From positions 1 to 25,869 of the IMG/VR virus record IMGVR_UViG_3300008110_000752: a stretch of 25,869 nt of DNA; one strand, given 5' to 3'. This stretch comes from a virus. The notes below the pieces were generated by a model that was not told the origin of the DNA, did no database searches, and saw nothing but the letters and a program-made list of their open reading frames with translations. Both the position numbers and the translations under genes were made by a program. Of the stretch, positions 164-12,369 are shown one piece after another (the first letter of the stretch is position 1; the number at the start of each line of letters is the position of its first letter).

Positions 164-421
164 ATGAAAATAGCAATACAACCAACAGAGCTACCGCTCG
201 GCCTCGGCACGGCAAACTACATGGAAATCGTAGTCAATTATTCCATCGGTGATGACACTACCGATTTGCAGATTTTTTATTACGACAACCTTGTCAAATT
301 GAATGTCAGTCCGCAAGTTGTACCTGTGCCTGTTGATCAGATGCAAGCATGGGACTACGATTTCGGGCAGATCGTGGATTGGGTATTAGGACAGACGGGC
401 GCAGAGTTTCCTGAAACATGA
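164..421 (+). CDS. Small hypothetical phage protein (85 aa)
   Basis: The ORF starts at ATG 164, 4 bp after the stop of the preceding gene, with an A-rich leader and no Shine-Dalgarno. It overlaps the endolysin start by an ATGA junction (stop 419-421, next ATG 418), which suggests translational coupling. The product is acidic, with no Cys, signal peptide or membrane segment, and has a Trp/Asp-rich C-terminus (AWDYDFGQIVDWVLGQ). I do not recognise the family. Its position between a virion gene and the endolysin suggests a minor structural, chaperone or lysis accessory role, which is inference only. Confidence 0.7.
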   Translation: MKIAIQPTELPLGLGTANYMEIVVNYSIGDDTTDLQIFYYDNLVKLNVSPQVVPVPVDQMQAWDYDFGQIVDWVLGQTGAEFPET

Positions 422-846
422 TCGACGCAATATCCCTACAACGCATGGACAGCCTGAACCCGCGCCTGATCGCAGAGGCGAAGGCGATTTTAGGCGAAGC
501 TCAGGCGGCTATGCCGACGGGCGTAACCGTGCGAATCACGCACGCCCTGCGCACGATTGAGGAACAAAACGCCCTGTTTGCCATCGGGCGCACCAAGCCG
601 GGCCGCAAGGTAACGAACGCACGCGGCGGCGATTCATTCCATAACTACGGGCTGGCACTTGACTTTTGCCTGATAGTAAACGGCAAAGCCTCATTCACCG
701 TGGATGCTAACTGGCTGAAGGTTATCGAAACCTTCGAACGCTACGGCTGGGAAAGCGGCCACCATTGGAAGTTCACAGATTCGCCGCACGTGCAAAAAAC
801 CTTTGGCCTAAGCATCGCAGACCTGAAAGGGGGACGGCGGCCGTGA
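418..846 (+). CDS. Endolysin, M15-family L,D-peptidase (CwlK/VanY-like)
   Basis: This 142-residue product has the full zinc-peptidase signature of MEROPS family M15. The first zinc ligands are in DSFHNYGLALDF (H75, D82), and the third is the His of DSPHVQK (H124), just after GWESGHHWK. Family members cleave peptide stems of peptidoglycan, either L-alanyl-D-glutamate or D-Ala-D-Ala bonds. In phages they act as endolysins once a holin has opened the inner membrane. There is no signal peptide and no separate cell-wall-binding domain, so it is a single-domain enzyme suited to a Gram-negative host. It starts at ATG 418, overlapping the previous stop. The following gene starts at GTG 843 inside its stop codon. 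The exact bond cleaved cannot be told from the sequence. Confidence 0.93.
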   Translation: MIDAISLQRMDSLNPRLIAEAKAILGEAQAAMPTGVTVRITHALRTIEEQNALFAIGRTKPGRKVTNARGGDSFHNYGLALDFCLIVNGKASFTVDANWLKVIETFERYGWESGHHWKFTDSPHVQKTFGLSIADLKGGRRP

Positions 847-1400
847 CGTTAGAGATTACCCTATCATCTGCCATAATCGTATCGGTGGTGGGCGGCGTTG
901 TTTCGATTACCGTGTCAATTATAGGCGGTAAATACCTGCTGGCATCCAAGCGCGAAGAGCGCATCGCAAAGCAGGAACTGAACACCATCCGGCACAGGTT
1001 GGAGGATGTTTACGACATTGTGCAGCAGCCGCCTTCCGGTTATGAGTGGATGGTGGTGAACAAGTACACGCACCTCGACCTGTTGGCGGTGGGCTATACG
1101 GTTATCGACCCCGTGCGGCAGGAAGAATTTATATCCGACGGGCTTTGCCAGCACCTCGGACGCACCCGGCCGCAATTCGGGAAGAAGGTTGCAGAGGTTG
1201 CCCGGTACGTTCATGCCGACGATGTGCGAAGCTATGGCCGGAACATAGAGGCAATGATTGAAAGCCAGACCACCGAGCAGCCGTTCACGTCGTTCGAGAT
1301 GATTAAGCGCATCCGGGACGCGAAAGAGAACGAGCGGCGTTATCTGGTTAAGACCGTTCAGGATGGGGCTTTTATTCTATCGGTGTATGAACTGGCTTAA
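843..1400 (+). CDS. Membrane-anchored protein with a PAS-like domain, in the lysis cassette
   Basis: I place the start at GTG 843, which overlaps the endolysin stop (GTGA) and follows a GGGGGACGG-like ribosome site. The ATG at 765 would lie deep inside the endolysin gene. The 185-residue product has one N-terminal transmembrane helix (about residues 5-31), a basic juxtamembrane segment and a short coiled coil (about 35-60). From about residue 80 to the end it reads like a PAS_3-type fold: VIDPVRQEEFISDGLCQHLG, then YVHADD (122-127, matching the usual hPDD), then a KRIRDAKENERRYLV strand pair. PAS domains sense ligands, redox state or light, or mediate dimerisation. No kinase or output domain follows. 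Membrane topology suggests a holin or antiholin-like regulator, which is inference. The PAS call is by eye. Confidence 0.7.
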   Translation: MTLEITLSSAIIVSVVGGVVSITVSIIGGKYLLASKREERIAKQELNTIRHRLEDVYDIVQQPPSGYEWMVVNKYTHLDLLAVGYTVIDPVRQEEFISDGLCQHLGRTRPQFGKKVAEVARYVHADDVRSYGRNIEAMIESQTTEQPFTSFEMIKRIRDAKENERRYLVKTVQDGAFILSVYELA

Positions 1401-1617
1401 AAAACTGCTCGCATCCTTCGAGAACGCCCCCGGCGGATTTTCAGCCCGCAAGTTGACGGCCTTCGCGTTCGCGGCCTGTGCGCTGTTCCTGCAATGGAAA
1501 CACGCAACGCCGGAAACAGTGCCGACGCTGGTTCTAATCGACGCCAGCGCGGCCCTGCTGTGCCTTGGTATTGTGACGGCGGCGGAGCTGATCAAGCTGC
1601 GCGGCGGTAAGGAATAG
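1387..1617 (+). CDS. Candidate holin, two transmembrane segments
   Basis: I choose ATG 1387 over the in-frame ATG 1363; it overlaps the preceding gene's last 14 bases and gives MNWLKK, a plausible membrane-protein start. The 76-residue product has a short amphipathic N-terminus, a first hydrophobic helix (about residues 20-40, LTAFAFAACALFLQW), a second (about 46-67, VPTLVLIDASAALLCLGIVTA), and a charged tail (LIKLRGGKE). Size, two helices, charged C-terminus and position next to an endolysin fit a class II-like holin, which forms inner-membrane lesions releasing the endolysin. There is no family-specific motif, so the call rests on topology and context. A promoter for the next small-gene cluster starts just after its stop. 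Confidence 0.7.
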   Translation: MNWLKKLLASFENAPGGFSARKLTAFAFAACALFLQWKHATPETVPTLVLIDASAALLCLGIVTAAELIKLRGGKE

Positions 1618-2575: not shown

Positions 2576-2623
2576 ATGAGAACCGTCCTAATCCTACTAT
2601 CCGCCCTGCTGCTAATCGGGTGC
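2576..2623 (+). repeat. Spanin 5' direct repeat, copy 1
   Basis: This covers the 16 codons of the lipoprotein signal and is nearly identical to 2782-2826 and 3396-3440. Homology stops right after the lipobox Cys codon. Confidence 0.85.
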
Positions 2624-2785
2624 AAATGTGACGGCGATTATATTGTGCGTAACAAATTTGTAAACCTTTACAATCCATCATTTGCGACATATCATTACCG
2701 CGCAGGTTGCACATGGGAAACCACAATTGATAGCAGTAATAAGTTCAATGTGGGAGATGACATCCGTAAGTATAAAAAGCCATGA
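2576..2785 (+). CDS. Small lipoprotein sharing the spanin signal sequence
   Basis: ATG 2576 follows the previous TAA with no gap. Residues 1-16 form a lipoprotein signal ending in the lipobox LLIGC (C16). The DNA for this segment (2576-2623) is nearly identical to the start of the u-spanin at 3396. The mature part (KCDGDYIVRNKFVNLYNP onwards) is unrelated to that spanin, has no transmembrane segment, and is AT-richer. It therefore looks like a chimera of a spanin leader with foreign cargo. A surface or periplasmic lipoprotein (such as superinfection exclusion) is possible, but nothing specific supports it. Its stop overlaps the next leader copy (ATGA at 2782). Confidence 0.6.
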   Translation: MRTVLILLSALLLIGCKCDGDYIVRNKFVNLYNPSFATYHYRAGCTWETTIDSSNKFNVGDDIRKYKKP

Positions 2786-2868
2786 GAATACTAATCCTAC
2801 TATCCGCCCTGCTGCTGATCGGGTGCAGCACCGAGCGCCGTTGCGCCCGCGCCGTGAACCGCTGCGCG
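2782..2868 (+). pseudogene. Truncated copy of the u-spanin 5' end
   Basis: About 29 codons (MRILILLSALLLIGC followed by STERRCARAVNRCA) match the start of the intact u-spanin at 3396-3482, with a few substitutions and two small indels. Homology ends abruptly at 2868. The frame then stays open, without recognisable protein, through a promoter at 2883-2914 and into the gene at 2923, ending at 3096. A fused 104-residue product is therefore formally possible. The internal promoter and separate start make an independent downstream gene more likely. It is best read as a recombination remnant or the left repeat of an inserted segment. Confidence 0.7.
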
Positions 2869-2882
2869 GCGGGAAAGACTGA

Positions 2883-2914
2883 TTTGCATATTCGCAGCAA
2901 AGGGTGTACTTTTG
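2883..2914 (+). promoter_or_regulatory. Bacteroidota-type promoter (TTTG, N20, TACTTTTG)
   Basis: TTTG (2883-2886) is followed after 20 bp by TACTTTTG (2907-2914). The -7 box lies in GCAAAGGGTGTACTTTTGC (2897-2915), which has the GCAAA-N9-TTTGC dyad seen at 3885 and 14078. ATG 2923 is 8 nt downstream. Confidence 0.65.
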
Positions 2915-2922
2915 CCTGCGTT

Positions 2923-3096
2923 ATGACAGCCATGAGCAAAGATAAACGCAAGGGCGGGCGGCGGCGGCAATTCGAGCCGCTGGCAGCCGTCAAGAAACCC
3001 ATATACGTGCCGGAAGGCATGGAGGATGAGGCAATCGAAGCGGCCCGCGCCGCGATTCATGAGCTATGGAAAGCTCGTAAGAAAGGGAAAGGATGA
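2923..3096 (+). CDS. Small basic protein (57 aa), paralogue of the 2232 gene
   Basis: ATG 2923 lies 8 nt after a TACTTTTG box; a second in-frame ATG at 2932 gives MSKDKRK. The product has a basic, Gly/Arg-rich N-terminus (KDKRKGGRRRQF), a short strand (PIYVPEGM) and a helix (EDEAIEAARAAIHELWKARKKGKG). The order of elements matches the 63-residue protein at 2232-2423, suggesting duplication and divergence. Charge suggests nucleic-acid binding, with no recognisable HTH or zinc site. It lies between two copies of the spanin leader, so it is part of a segment that appears to have been inserted at the spanin start. Confidence 0.6.
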   Translation: MTAMSKDKRKGGRRRQFEPLAAVKKPIYVPEGMEDEAIEAARAAIHELWKARKKGKG

Positions 3097-3131
3097 GGGC
3101 TAACGTTTCGGGTATTGCCGAAGGCGTGGAT

Positions 3132-3139
3132 TATATTTG
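3132..3139 (+). promoter_or_regulatory. Possible -7 element TATATTTG
   Basis: TATATTTG lies in the 65-bp gap before the ORF at 3162 and matches TAxxTTTG. Only a weak -33 candidate (TTTC at 3106-3109, 22 bp away) is present, so this is tentative. Confidence 0.35.
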
Positions 3140-3161
3140 ATAAAGTTAAATTGAAATACAA

Positions 3162-3377
3162 ATGTTGAACAAAGCAAAAATTTTCATAGTAGCAATTCTG
3201 CCACGCTTTTGGCAATACCTTGTTACCTGCCGTTTTTTCTGTGGTCATCTTCAATGGGTGAAAACTGGTAATACATTGGGTAGCAAATTGCACGAACATA
3301 AATGTTTAAAGTGTGGCAAGTCAATTTATAGGGATAGTTTTAATCCACCTGTGTCGTTTGTTGAAAATGGCAGGTAA
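3162..3377 (+). CDS. Small CxxC protein (71 aa), AT-rich
   Basis: ATG 3162 follows an AT-rich leader with no Shine-Dalgarno. The product has a hydrophobic N-terminal stretch (residues 6-22), then C23, C27 and H29, and a zinc-knuckle-like HEHKCLKCGKS (C48, C51). It may bind a metal and may be membrane-associated. Base composition is clearly more AT-rich than the flanking phage genes, which suggests recent acquisition. It occupies the second half of the segment between spanin leader copies 2 and 3. I do not recognise a family. Coding status rests on the Cys/His pattern and the upstream TATATTTG. Confidence 0.5.
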   Translation: MLNKAKIFIVAILPRFWQYLVTCRFFCGHLQWVKTGNTLGSKLHEHKCLKCGKSIYRDSFNPPVSFVENGR

Positions 3378-3395
3378 CTCATCTATAACTACACC

Positions 3396-3482
3396 ATGCG
3401 AACCGTCCTAATCCTATCCGCCCTGCTGCTGATCGGTTGCAGCACGGAGCGCCGCTGCGCCCGCGCCGTGAACCGATGCGCG
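3396..3482 (+). repeat. Spanin 5' direct repeat, copy 3 (intact gene)
   Basis: This is the first 29 codons of the intact u-spanin. Identity with 2782-2868 is roughly 90% by eye, and the first 16 codons also match 2576-2623. Confidence 0.85.
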
Positions 3483-3870: not shown

Positions 3871-3902
3871 TTGACACGATACGGGCAAAGGGTGTATGTT
3901 TG
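3871..3902 (+). promoter_or_regulatory. Early promoter (TTG, N21, TATGTTTG)
   Basis: TTG (3871-3873) is followed after 21 bp by TATGTTTG (3895-3902). The 19-mer GCAAAGGGTGTATGTTTGC (3885-3903) and the next 6 bases are identical to those at 14078-14102. ATG 3907 is 4 nt after the box. It directly follows a terminator and probably drives the replication operon. Confidence 0.8.
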
Positions 3903-4666: not shown

Positions 4667-4914
4667 TATTCTGCATCATTACCGCCGCCGCCGTGGTTAT
4701 CACCGGAGCCATCGTATTCCGGCCACAGGTTCGCTACCGTGAGGGTGAGGTTGTTTACTTTCGCGGTACGAACATCACCGCCCGCGTCGAGGCTGTGCGC
4801 ATCCGAAACGGCTTCAGCGAATACAAGCTCTCCGGCCATCACCCTTGGTACAAATGGCACGCGCTTTCTCGCCGCCATGAACGATTGAAATTTTCACGTA
4901 AAAACCCATACTAA
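4663..4914 (+). CDS. Membrane-anchored SH3-like small protein (83 aa)
   Basis: I choose ATG 4663 (ATGA overlap) over the in-frame ATG 4555, whose N-terminal extension is unlike protein and covers the previous gene. The N-terminus is a transmembrane helix (about residues 2-18, IFCIITAAAVVITGAIVF). The remainder reads as a small beta barrel: REGEVVYFRGTNITARVEAV followed by FSEYKLSGHHPWYKWHALSRRHERL. This resembles SH3/KOW-like domains in small phage proteins of unknown role. It ends one base into the next gene's ATG (TAATG). Confidence 0.65.
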   Translation: MIFCIITAAAVVITGAIVFRPQVRYREGEVVYFRGTNITARVEAVRIRNGFSEYKLSGHHPWYKWHALSRRHERLKFSRKNPY

Positions 4915-5510
4915 TGACGAATAAATCCACCACACCGACCGCCCGCCTAATGGCCGCGCAAACCGAAATCCAAGCGATTACGAAGGACAAAACAAACCCG
5001 CATTTCCGCAACAAGTACGCGGACATTAACACGATGCTGGCAGAGGTCAAGCCAGCCCTGCACAAGCACGGGCTTTACATCATTCAGCCCATCGAAGACG
5101 GCAAGGTAATAACGCGCATAATCGACGCGGAAAGCGGAACCGTCCTGTGCGAATCCGGTCTGGAGCTATCCGGCCAAGGCAACCCGCAACAGCGAGGTTC
5201 AGAGATTACCTATTACCGCCGCTACACCTTGCAAAGCCTGCTGGCACTTGAGGCCGAAGACGACGACGCGAACGCGGCCAGCGCACCCGCTCCGGCTCCC
5301 GCTGCACAGGCGAACCCAGCCGACGATAACAAGCCTTGGCTCGATGCTGCTGAGGAAGCGTATGTTAAGGCGATGGATTGGGTAAAGGGCAAGGGCGAAG
5401 ACGGGCTGAAGACTGCGCTCGGCAAGCTGACCCAGACCTACAAGGTAAACAAGACCATGCGCGAAGCGTTAAAGGTTGCGGCTCTGGCTGACATGAAATT
5501 GATACCATGA
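4914..5510 (+). CDS. erf: Erf-family single-strand annealing recombinase
   Basis: The 198-residue product matches the Erf family (P22 Erf-like). Seen motifs are an N-terminal helix (AAQTEIQAITKDKTNPHFRNKYADI, about 14-38), the segment EVKPALHKHGLYIIQP, a beta region ending in GSEITYYRRYTLQSLLAL, and the family's acidic EAEDDDAN. An Ala/Pro linker (about 122-140) leads to a small C-terminal helical domain. Erf proteins anneal complementary single strands in phage recombination and genome circularisation. The start ATG 4914 overlaps the previous stop by one base, and the end overlaps the next ORF (ATGA). It opens the replication/recombination block. Confidence 0.9.
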   Translation: MTNKSTTPTARLMAAQTEIQAITKDKTNPHFRNKYADINTMLAEVKPALHKHGLYIIQPIEDGKVITRIIDAESGTVLCESGLELSGQGNPQQRGSEITYYRRYTLQSLLALEAEDDDANAASAPAPAPAAQANPADDNKPWLDAAEEAYVKAMDWVKGKGEDGLKTALGKLTQTYKVNKTMREALKVAALADMKLIP

Positions 5511-5983: not shown

Positions 5984-6727
5984 ATGTATCAATCACAGAC
6001 CGAACCAATGGCACTGCGCCAAGTTCACACAACCACAGATTACGGAAGATTCACTTCCATTGACGGCAACCGCAACCTTAACCTGTTGCACCTTCAGCGG
6101 CTTAAGAAGTCGATTCAGGAAAACTATTTGTTTACGATTATCATCGTGAATGAGAAGTTTGAAATCATTGACGGGCAGCACCGCTTTGAAGCTCTTAAAG
6201 TATTCGGACTGCCACTCCATTACATCATCTGCGAAGGCTATGGATTGGAACAAGTTCACATTCTGAACGCTACCTCAAAGACGTGGAACGCGGATGATTA
6301 TTTAGAGGGCTACATCAAACTTGGCAAGTCCGACTACATGAGGTACAAGCAATTCAAGAACAAATACGAATTTCCTCACAACGTCTGTATGCCTTTGCTT
6401 ACTGGTTACAATAGCAATGCAAGCGCAAGCAACATCAAAAGTTTTTACAATGGCGAGTTCAGGATTGGTAATTACAAGGAAGCCGTACAAATTGCGGAAG
6501 CAGTAACACTTATTGCGCCTCTTTATGATGGTTACAAAAAGGCAAATTTTATACTTGCCATGATTCAGCTGATGCGAAAACCTCAGTTTGAATTTACTGA
6601 GTTCATTGCAAAACTTCGCCTTCAGCCTTCAGCGTTGTTTGATTGCCAAACCACTGCACAGTACGTTTCCCTTATCGAAGAAATTTACAACTATCGCCGC
6701 CGCGATAAAGTAAATCTGAGATATTGA
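5984..6727 (+). CDS. ParB-like nuclease-fold protein
   Basis: The 247-residue product has the ParB/sulfiredoxin fold motif near the N-terminus: LKKSIQENYLFTIIIVNEKFEIIDGQHRFEALKVFGLPLHYII (about 40-83), with the characteristic DGQHRxEA. ParB-fold proteins bind DNA or hydrolyse CTP in partitioning. Phage versions often serve as regulators or nucleases with unknown targets. The rest is helical, with no second known domain. It follows a 33-bp A-rich gap with no Shine-Dalgarno. Base composition and codon use are clearly more AT-rich than erf and dnaB on either side, suggesting separate acquisition. It is too short and lacks the usual ParB HTH, so plasmid-type partitioning is unlikely. Confidence 0.85.
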   Translation: MYQSQTEPMALRQVHTTTDYGRFTSIDGNRNLNLLHLQRLKKSIQENYLFTIIIVNEKFEIIDGQHRFEALKVFGLPLHYIICEGYGLEQVHILNATSKTWNADDYLEGYIKLGKSDYMRYKQFKNKYEFPHNVCMPLLTGYNSNASASNIKSFYNGEFRIGNYKEAVQIAEAVTLIAPLYDGYKKANFILAMIQLMRKPQFEFTEFIAKLRLQPSALFDCQTTAQYVSLIEEIYNYRRRDKVNLRY

Positions 6728-11816: not shown

Positions 11817-12369
11817 AACACGCAAAGCACACGACCGCCGGGTGAAGTCAGGGTTTTACCGCCGCTTCATTACCGGAAAGCAAGGCATTGACATTGGATG
11901 CGGGCGCATCGACACGCACGACGGCCTCGACACCGTAAGCCTGACGGATTGCATACACCATGATAAGGACATTTGCGACGCGACCACAATGGAAGTGTAT
12001 GCAGATGACACCTTCGACTACGTCTATGCCTCGCACGTTCTGGAACACCTCGACGACCCGGTAACGGCGGTTAAGAACTGGGTGCGCATTTGCAAGCCGG
12101 GCGGCGTGGTGCTTATAAGCCTGCCGCATCGTGATTTGTACGAACGCAAACGGACGCTTCCAAGCAAGTGGAACCTTGACCACCGATACTTTTATCTGCC
12201 AAACGCCTGCGACCCGCCGCACACGTTCAGCGTGGAAGGCGTGCTGAGGTCTGCAGGGGTCGATGGCTACAAGTGGGCCATGAAGGTGATTGACACCAGC
12301 ACGAACCACGACCACCCGGATGAACACGCGAACGGGGAGTTTTCAATCGAAGTAACAATCTGGAAGTAA
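11809..12369 (+). CDS. Class I SAM-dependent methyltransferase
   Basis: The 186-residue product has a Methyltransf_11-type Rossmann fold. Motif I is GIDIGCGR (26-33), an acidic strand follows around residues 40-55, and the post-I signature is FDYVYASHVLEHLDDP (69-84). Then come the motif III-like ICKPGGVVLISLPH (94-107) and HRYFYLPNACDPPHTF. It transfers a methyl group from SAM to an unknown acceptor. No DPPY or (N/D)PPY motif of N6-adenine/N4-cytosine DNA methyltransferases, and no PCQ motif of C5 enzymes, is seen. A sugar or small-molecule acceptor therefore fits better, in line with the two glycosyltransferases nearby. Confidence 0.85.
   Translation: MAETRKAHDRRVKSGFYRRFITGKQGIDIGCGRIDTHDGLDTVSLTDCIHHDKDICDATTMEVYADDTFDYVYASHVLEHLDDPVTAVKNWVRICKPGGVVLISLPHRDLYERKRTLPSKWNLDHRYFYLPNACDPPHTFSVEGVLRSAGVDGYKWAMKVIDTSTNHDHPDEHANGEFSIEVTIWK

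Follow-up and report, generated by a model that had tools for sequence, protein, structure and literature searches.

A duplicated spanin leader as a probable recombination joint for small accessory genes in a group of phages

Genes and leader copies at the spanin locus

The window analyzed here is a virus record of 25,869 bp (IMGVR_UViG_3300008110_000752) taken as a whole, and no host contig goes with it. It encodes an endolysin-type peptidase, a small membrane protein, a u-spanin-like lipoprotein, and an Erf-type single-strand annealing protein, the gene for the last lying 1.4 kb downstream of the locus at which the start of the spanin gene is repeated (Table 1). The original prediction had placed an intact spanin behind the third copy of this leader. 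The 137-aa ORF is indeed intact, and its product is best described as u-spanin-like, a label that reflects its lipobox, its C-terminal transmembrane stretch, and its position. The lipobox reads LLLIGC-S in eight of nine relatives and IIVAGC-S in L058, and inspection finds a hydrophobic C-terminus in all nine, predicted as a helix at residues 114-133 in a low-confidence structural model (mean pLDDT 52.8) that also places strands at 64-100. For T1 gp11, a beta-rich periplasmic domain is predicted (PMC6139136). Three periplasmic cysteines (C21, C28, and C90) are invariant across the nine relatives, which breaks the cysteine-free regularity of known u-spanins, as none of 58 surveyed carries a periplasmic cysteine (PMC6139136).

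Table 1. Features of the spanin locus and its surroundings, in window coordinates
Feature	Position	Strand	Remarks
Endolysin-type peptidase M15	418..846	+	PF13539, E 1e-9; phrog_2649 endolysin, E 4e-25
Small membrane protein, holin-like by inspection only	1363-1617		
Leader copy 1	2576-2624 aligned; signal part 2576..2620	+	Lipoprotein signal MRTVLILLSALLLIGC
Cargo 1, mature part of 69-aa small lipoprotein	2621..2785	+	39% GC
Leader copy 2	2782-2868	+	Truncated start of a window-type spanin: signal and the 14 mature codons after it
Promoter of Bacteroidota type, TTG-N20-TACTTTTG	2884..2915	+	Core common to promoters at 3871 and 14064
Cargo 2, basic protein of 57 aa	2926..3096	+	Reads in frame with leader 2 too, giving an ORF of 104 aa
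attC-like hairpin, 130 bp	3098..3235	+	Bacteroidota-wide family (model R1); folds better than 198 of 200 shuffles
Cargo 3, 71-aa ORF	3162..3377	+	Begins inside the attC-like hairpin loop; CxxC motif; GC 0.37
Cassette ends	GTTACCTGCC 3223, GGCAGGTAAC 3369 (3223..3378)		Inverted repeat as in integron cassettes
Leader copy 3	3396-3482	+	Start of the intact spanin gene
u-Spanin-like lipoprotein, 137 aa	3396..3809	+	LIGC lipobox and a transmembrane helix at the C-terminus
Erf-type single-strand annealing protein, proposed recombinase	4914..5510	+	PF04404, E 4e-21; phrog_2324, E 3e-37

The claim that the leader occurs three times, at 2576, 2782, and 3396, holds, and chance is excluded since the alignments have E values of ~1e-25 and ~1e-11. 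Copies 2 and 3 are 85% identical over 89 nt ungapped (87% over 92 columns when gapped), and copies 1 and 3 are 89.8% identical over 49 columns. Homology also ends where it was said to end, at the lipobox Cys codon in copy 1 and at position 2868, 14 codons past the Cys, in copy 2. Copy 1 appears to be a mosaic in which a copy 3-like GAACCGTCCTAATCCTA is followed by a copy 2-like CTACTATCC...GGGTGC. Because copies 1 and 2 share CTACTATCC and GGGTGC, both absent from copy 3, exchange between leader copies inside one genome is likely.

Each of the first two copies is followed by DNA of a different kind. The 69-aa lipoprotein ORF that begins with copy 1 (2576-2785) has, as predicted, a body unrelated to the spanin. 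This ORF is also found in L001, L002, and L007, where its two lineages differ at one nonsynonymous and three synonymous positions, too few for a selection test, and it matched no Pfam or PHROG family in searches of the family libraries. Cargo 1 would have become a lipoprotein, presumably exported, through the use of leader 1. Behind copy 2, the expected promoter and two small genes are in place, with one ORF running to 3096 and the other from 3162 to 3377. The promoter core GCAAAGGGTGTANNTTTGC (2897-2915) has exact copies at 3885 and 14078, with none expected in shuffles, and it matches the TTTG/TANNTTTG promoter type of Bacteroidota. The core spans 19 bp with two free positions, and two of its three sites directly precede short ORFs. 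A promoter of this type, with its core present at three places, points to a host among the Bacteroidota and to cargo 2 being of phage origin. Among viral contigs, cargo 2 is found in L001 and L002 only. Its resemblance to a small resident gene that precedes the spanin in L051/L054 is weak (17 bits in a comparison of four sequences) and counts as a lead. Neither cargo 2 nor the spanin had a protein match in known phage records, the DNA of the locus had no match there either, and the family libraries yielded nothing for the spanin and cargo proteins beyond a weak match of cargo 3 to PHROG 7696 (E 0.007). The GC content of cargo 1 and cargo 3 is 0.37-0.39, compared with 0.52.

A transferred block and leader states among relatives

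Over the 838 bp of window positions 2614-3451, identity to L002 is 98.4%. L001 matches the window at 98.7% over 2617-3211 and at 97.1% over 3316-3451. Identity in the other alignable regions is ~70-84%, and the DNA immediately before leader 1 gave no match. In a 20-bp profile, identity switches at 2600-2620, the lipobox of leader 1, and at 3420-3480, in leader 3. The left breakpoint is marked by a rise from background to 20/20 identity with L002 at ~2614-2620, and the right one lies inside leader 3 at ~3427-3451. A block of 98.4% identity thus stands within surroundings of ~70-84% and ends inside leaders, the mark of a recent passage between distant phages. The same observations bear on a local origin of the repeats, in which the leader was duplicated in tandem and diverged without any transfer. 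The bases that copies 1 and 2 share to the exclusion of copy 3 (CTACTATCC and GGGTGC) would fit such an origin, which may apply to single copies. It is refuted for the whole block, as the cargo is unrelated to the spanin, cargo 1 and cargo 3 differ in GC, and the cargo is 98-100% identical in phages that otherwise share ~70-84%; as a general explanation we give it almost no weight.

Relatives do not all carry the three-copy arrangement with the same cargo. Both one-leader genomes and different cargo between leaders were found among them, and this range of one-, two-, and three-leader genomes supports the earlier proposal of repeated insertion at, or recombination through, the leader as an accretion site. 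A spanin-profile scan identified a single leader in L058/L057, where it reads MRSSIILLAIIVAGC-STERQC..., and in L051-L055, where it is of a sister type. L007 has two leaders and cargo 1 only, in the order native leader, cargo 1, leader 2, and spanin body. The three-leader block is found in the window, L001, and L002, although the first leader of L002 is not intact, as a 189-bp deletion that ends at CGGGTGC has taken leader 1 and left the block. When L007 is compared with the one-leader L058, homology breaks at L058 position 6046 and resumes at 6039, inside GGCCGGATGCA (lipobox CCGGRTGCA), and because it breaks and resumes there, the alignment places the insertion of cargo 1 with a new leader exactly at the lipobox. 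Between L001 and L007, identity is complete for the 2,467 bp before the leader and falls to 84% from there on, with the leader 2-3 block missing from L007. The state of L007 may be either a loss through leader-to-leader recombination or a stage that preceded gain.

Blocks of 98-100% identity have their junctions inside leaders in several of these comparisons. Within the cluster obtained by protein search, five of seven breakpoints fall in leaders, for which random placement gives P of ~7e-7 to 4e-5, values to be read as a rough guide because the events are not fully independent. Breakpoints away from leaders include a 105-bp deletion at GGCAA in L001 and a step from 84 to 92% identity near L001 position 4110. 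The 24-nt leader core has one or two mismatches in L051/L054 (92-96% conserved between lineages), and the spanin bodies of L051-L055 are 71-75% identical. Reading these genomes together, we consider it probable that phages of this group acquire small accessory genes by recombination, with the spanin leader as the joint.

Illegitimate, microhomology-based recombination combined with selection could produce a similar picture if breaks occurred everywhere and only those in the leader survived, with spanin and lysis intact. The 5-bp GGCAA joint of the L001 deletion and the near absence of homology at the left end of the L002 deletion speak for this reading, and an insert carrying its own leader would be neutral for the spanin. 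However, the leader joints involve more identity than this process needs, with ~32 bp identical between leaders 2 and 3 of L001 and matched stretches of 58 bp at the L001/L007 and window/L001 switches, and the contigs L060 and L070 retain a leader joint with no spanin behind it. We therefore regard microhomology and selection as an improbable sole cause and favor the leader as the joint.

L060, L065, and their kin were found by scanning for leader DNA, so that they are biased toward leader junctions and illustrate the variety of cargo rather than an unbiased rate. In L060/L070, an unrelated cassette ORF of 117 aa separates a leader remnant from a second leader, behind which lie AT-rich phage genes that are unrelated as well. 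The GC-rich island of L070/L060 (L097), set in an otherwise AT-rich phage, is homologous to genes upstream of the L054 spanin, and it ends at the leader, with a GC content of 0.475 before and 0.349 after. In L065/L073, the leader lies behind integron-like cassettes, of which the last is common to both and the preceding one differs, and the two contigs are ~99% identical downstream of the last cassette. In L073, this segment is found at a different locus, flanked by homologues of window positions 12231 and 13016.

It is also necessary to consider whether the junctions are artefacts, with metagenomic contigs made chimeric at a short repeat. Assemblers do break here, as L056 and L067 start inside the leader, which is what would be expected of a repeat with several contexts in a sample, and L003 ends 198 bp after it. 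L003 carries a window-type spanin and was rejected as independent proof; its first 4,786 bp are those of L070 (99.98%), and its right-hand junction may be a chimera of assembly. The junctions of the window, however, recur in L001 and L002, and that of L060/L070 lies mid-contig (at 14.8 kb of a 38-kb contig and at 24.3 kb of a 42-kb contig) within 7 kb of 100% identity between two metagenomes that were assembled separately. An artefact is thereby largely refuted and has very little probability as a general explanation, and recombination at the leader is retained as the preferred reading.

An attC-like element and its chromosomal arrays

The hairpin that overlaps the start of cargo 3 was absent from the original prediction. 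In exact-pattern scans, the element was found in three viral contigs beyond L001 and L002. Genome contigs contributed 37 stretches with it, almost exclusively from Bacteroidota, the exceptions by record title being one Ignavibacteria and one Limnohabitans MAG; it had no match in the collection of phage records. From 26 copies, a 19-pair stem is obtained with compensatory changes at seven pairs. At the ends of the element, GTTA is invariant and AAC largely conserved, and the arms form an imperfect inverted repeat with an unpaired spacer, as in integron cassettes. Set against the core sites RYYYAAC and GTTRRRY, Y/TAAC and GTTA are conserved and the three outer bases are free. Ahead of the following site, the complement of the end GTTAyyyyy was present in 20 of 41 cases downstream and 17 of 41 upstream, whereas permuted ends gave means of 3.0 and 0.8, so that the ends are complementary as those of cassettes are. 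In L001 (position 2841; window 3211-3316), the 105-bp deletion with GGCAA microhomology has cut away some of cargo 3 along with the element's right arm.

Sites of this 130-bp kind make up large same-strand chromosomal arrays in Bacteroidota (L093-L096 and L100-L102), often with a divergent recombinase, integron-integrase-like but not classical, near the array end. A covariance model scored 150 sites over ~0.5 Mb of CP058707.1, the listed ones all on the same strand, and detected the element in 76 of the 119 Bacteroidia genomes sampled. The recombinase is of the tyrosine type, carries additional N-terminal sequence, and lies close to the end of the array in CP058707.1, Niabella, Flavipsychrobacter, and Flavobacterium covae. 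With a recombinase cut-off of E 1e-60, 54 of the 119 genomes have both site and recombinase, 22 the site only, 10 the recombinase only, and 33 neither (Fisher P 4.5e-7, with kinship ignored). With scores of no more than 225 bits where 265 are required, the recombinases associated with arrays fall below the cut-off of the integron-integrase (IntI) family, and TIGR02249 positions ~180-240, the IntI-specific insert, are unmatched in the alignment. In the chromosomal arrays L100, L101, and L102, ORFs lie mostly opposite to the site model and point away from the recombinase, whereas those of the phage cassettes (L009, L010, L065, and window 3162-3377) run along the model strand. In L009 (reverse complement, from 5244) and L010 (from 11885), the attC-like site is directly followed by ORFs in which DNA-methyltransferase motifs were recognized by eye. 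Within Bacteroidetes proper, Salinibacter ruber is the only case for which IntegronFinder 2.0 reported a complete integron (PMC9024848). No description of the attC-like family was found in the literature searched, which comprised open-licence papers, and its novelty is a lead.

Given these features, one could suppose that the leader or lipobox DNA is itself the attachment site of an integron-like or other recombinase. In three phage lineages (window/L001/L002, L060/L070, and L065/L073), leaders are indeed immediately preceded by cassettes with attC-like sites, and the family has its associated chromosomal recombinase. Yet the cassette ends (GTTA.../...TAAC) fall before the leader ATG and thus outside the leader, cargo 1 has no attC-like site, the position of the joint varies within leaders from the lipobox to codon 29, and no integrase gene was identified in the examined part of the window. 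We consider site-specific insertion at the leader highly unlikely as the general mechanism. A separate proposal, which we put forward tentatively as possible but somewhat doubtful, is that the leader locus captures cassettes of a widespread, unrecognized integron-like system of Bacteroidota, with an attC-like site family of its own, a tyrosine recombinase other than a classical IntI, and arrays of more than 100 cassettes, and that phages shuttle these cassettes from host to host by recombination through the leader, which every insertion regenerates.

Recombination through the leader and related systems

For gene gain through the leader, co-infecting or resident phages would have the GC-rich leader DNA in common, and the phage's own Erf-type annealing protein may join molecules through this short sequence during replication as a form of homeologous recombination, although host RecA or chance end-joining could also be responsible. 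A block that ends in a leader would be harmless on insertion and so tolerated, because a complete spanin would be rebuilt downstream, and the old leader left upstream would be either a remnant or a ready-made signal sequence for the new cargo, as it may have been for cargo 1. Repeated rounds could then stack leaders with different cargo between them, whatever function that cargo may serve, and leader-to-leader recombination could delete cargo again. Host cassettes with an attC-like site would reach the same locus too, cargo 3 being the candidate here. If this is the case, the locus offers a concrete and testable instance of small accessory-gene gain in which a short coding sequence is the joint and is rebuilt at each gain, in which a left-over leader can make a captured gene a lipoprotein, and in which the series of one-, two-, and three-leader genomes shows the steps. 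The attC-like family, for its part, suggests that Bacteroidota hold a large pool of cassettes of a kind that would escape classical searches for integrons.

The proposed role of Erf is consistent with the relaxed recombination of diverged homologues described for Red beta, Erf, and Sak (PMC3945230, PMC2327257), and an Erf gene is present here. One of these studies describes efficient joining of 78%-identical sequences by Rad52-like phage recombinases, D3 Erf included, and in that description the shortest region named for Erf-type recombination is 700 bp, compared with leader joints of 30-50 bp here (PMC3945230). Lambda Red also recombines homeologous DNA (PMC2327257). Unlike in those cases, one short leader would be reused here to give a leader stack, a process proposed from sequence comparisons. 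The spanin-like gene resembles those of unimolecular spanins such as T1 gp11 (PMC6139136) in its N-terminal lipobox, its C-terminal transmembrane segment, and the endolysin gene nearby, and differs from them in its three conserved periplasmic cysteines and in having no sequence family match.

The cassettes with attC-type sites recall the integron cassettes known from phage genomes (CALINs; PMC9892861), and the DNA-methyltransferase-like cassettes of L010 and L009 recall the methyltransferase cassettes of Polaribacter phage P12002L (PMC9892861). They differ from CALINs in that the sites are Bacteroidota-wide, the recombinase lacks the classical IntI insert, and the phage locus is tied to the spanin leader. 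The cargo also resembles morons and the accessory-gene hot spots of mosaic phages in comprising small genes inserted between conserved ones, with their own promoter, odd GC content, and joints at gene boundaries. Unlike in morons, the joint here lies inside a coding sequence, that of a signal peptide. It is duplicated whenever a gene is gained, and the cargo makes use of the leader left behind. Phage mosaicism, morons, and phage-borne cassettes are all known, and the leader-regenerating stack is a variation on them that is new.
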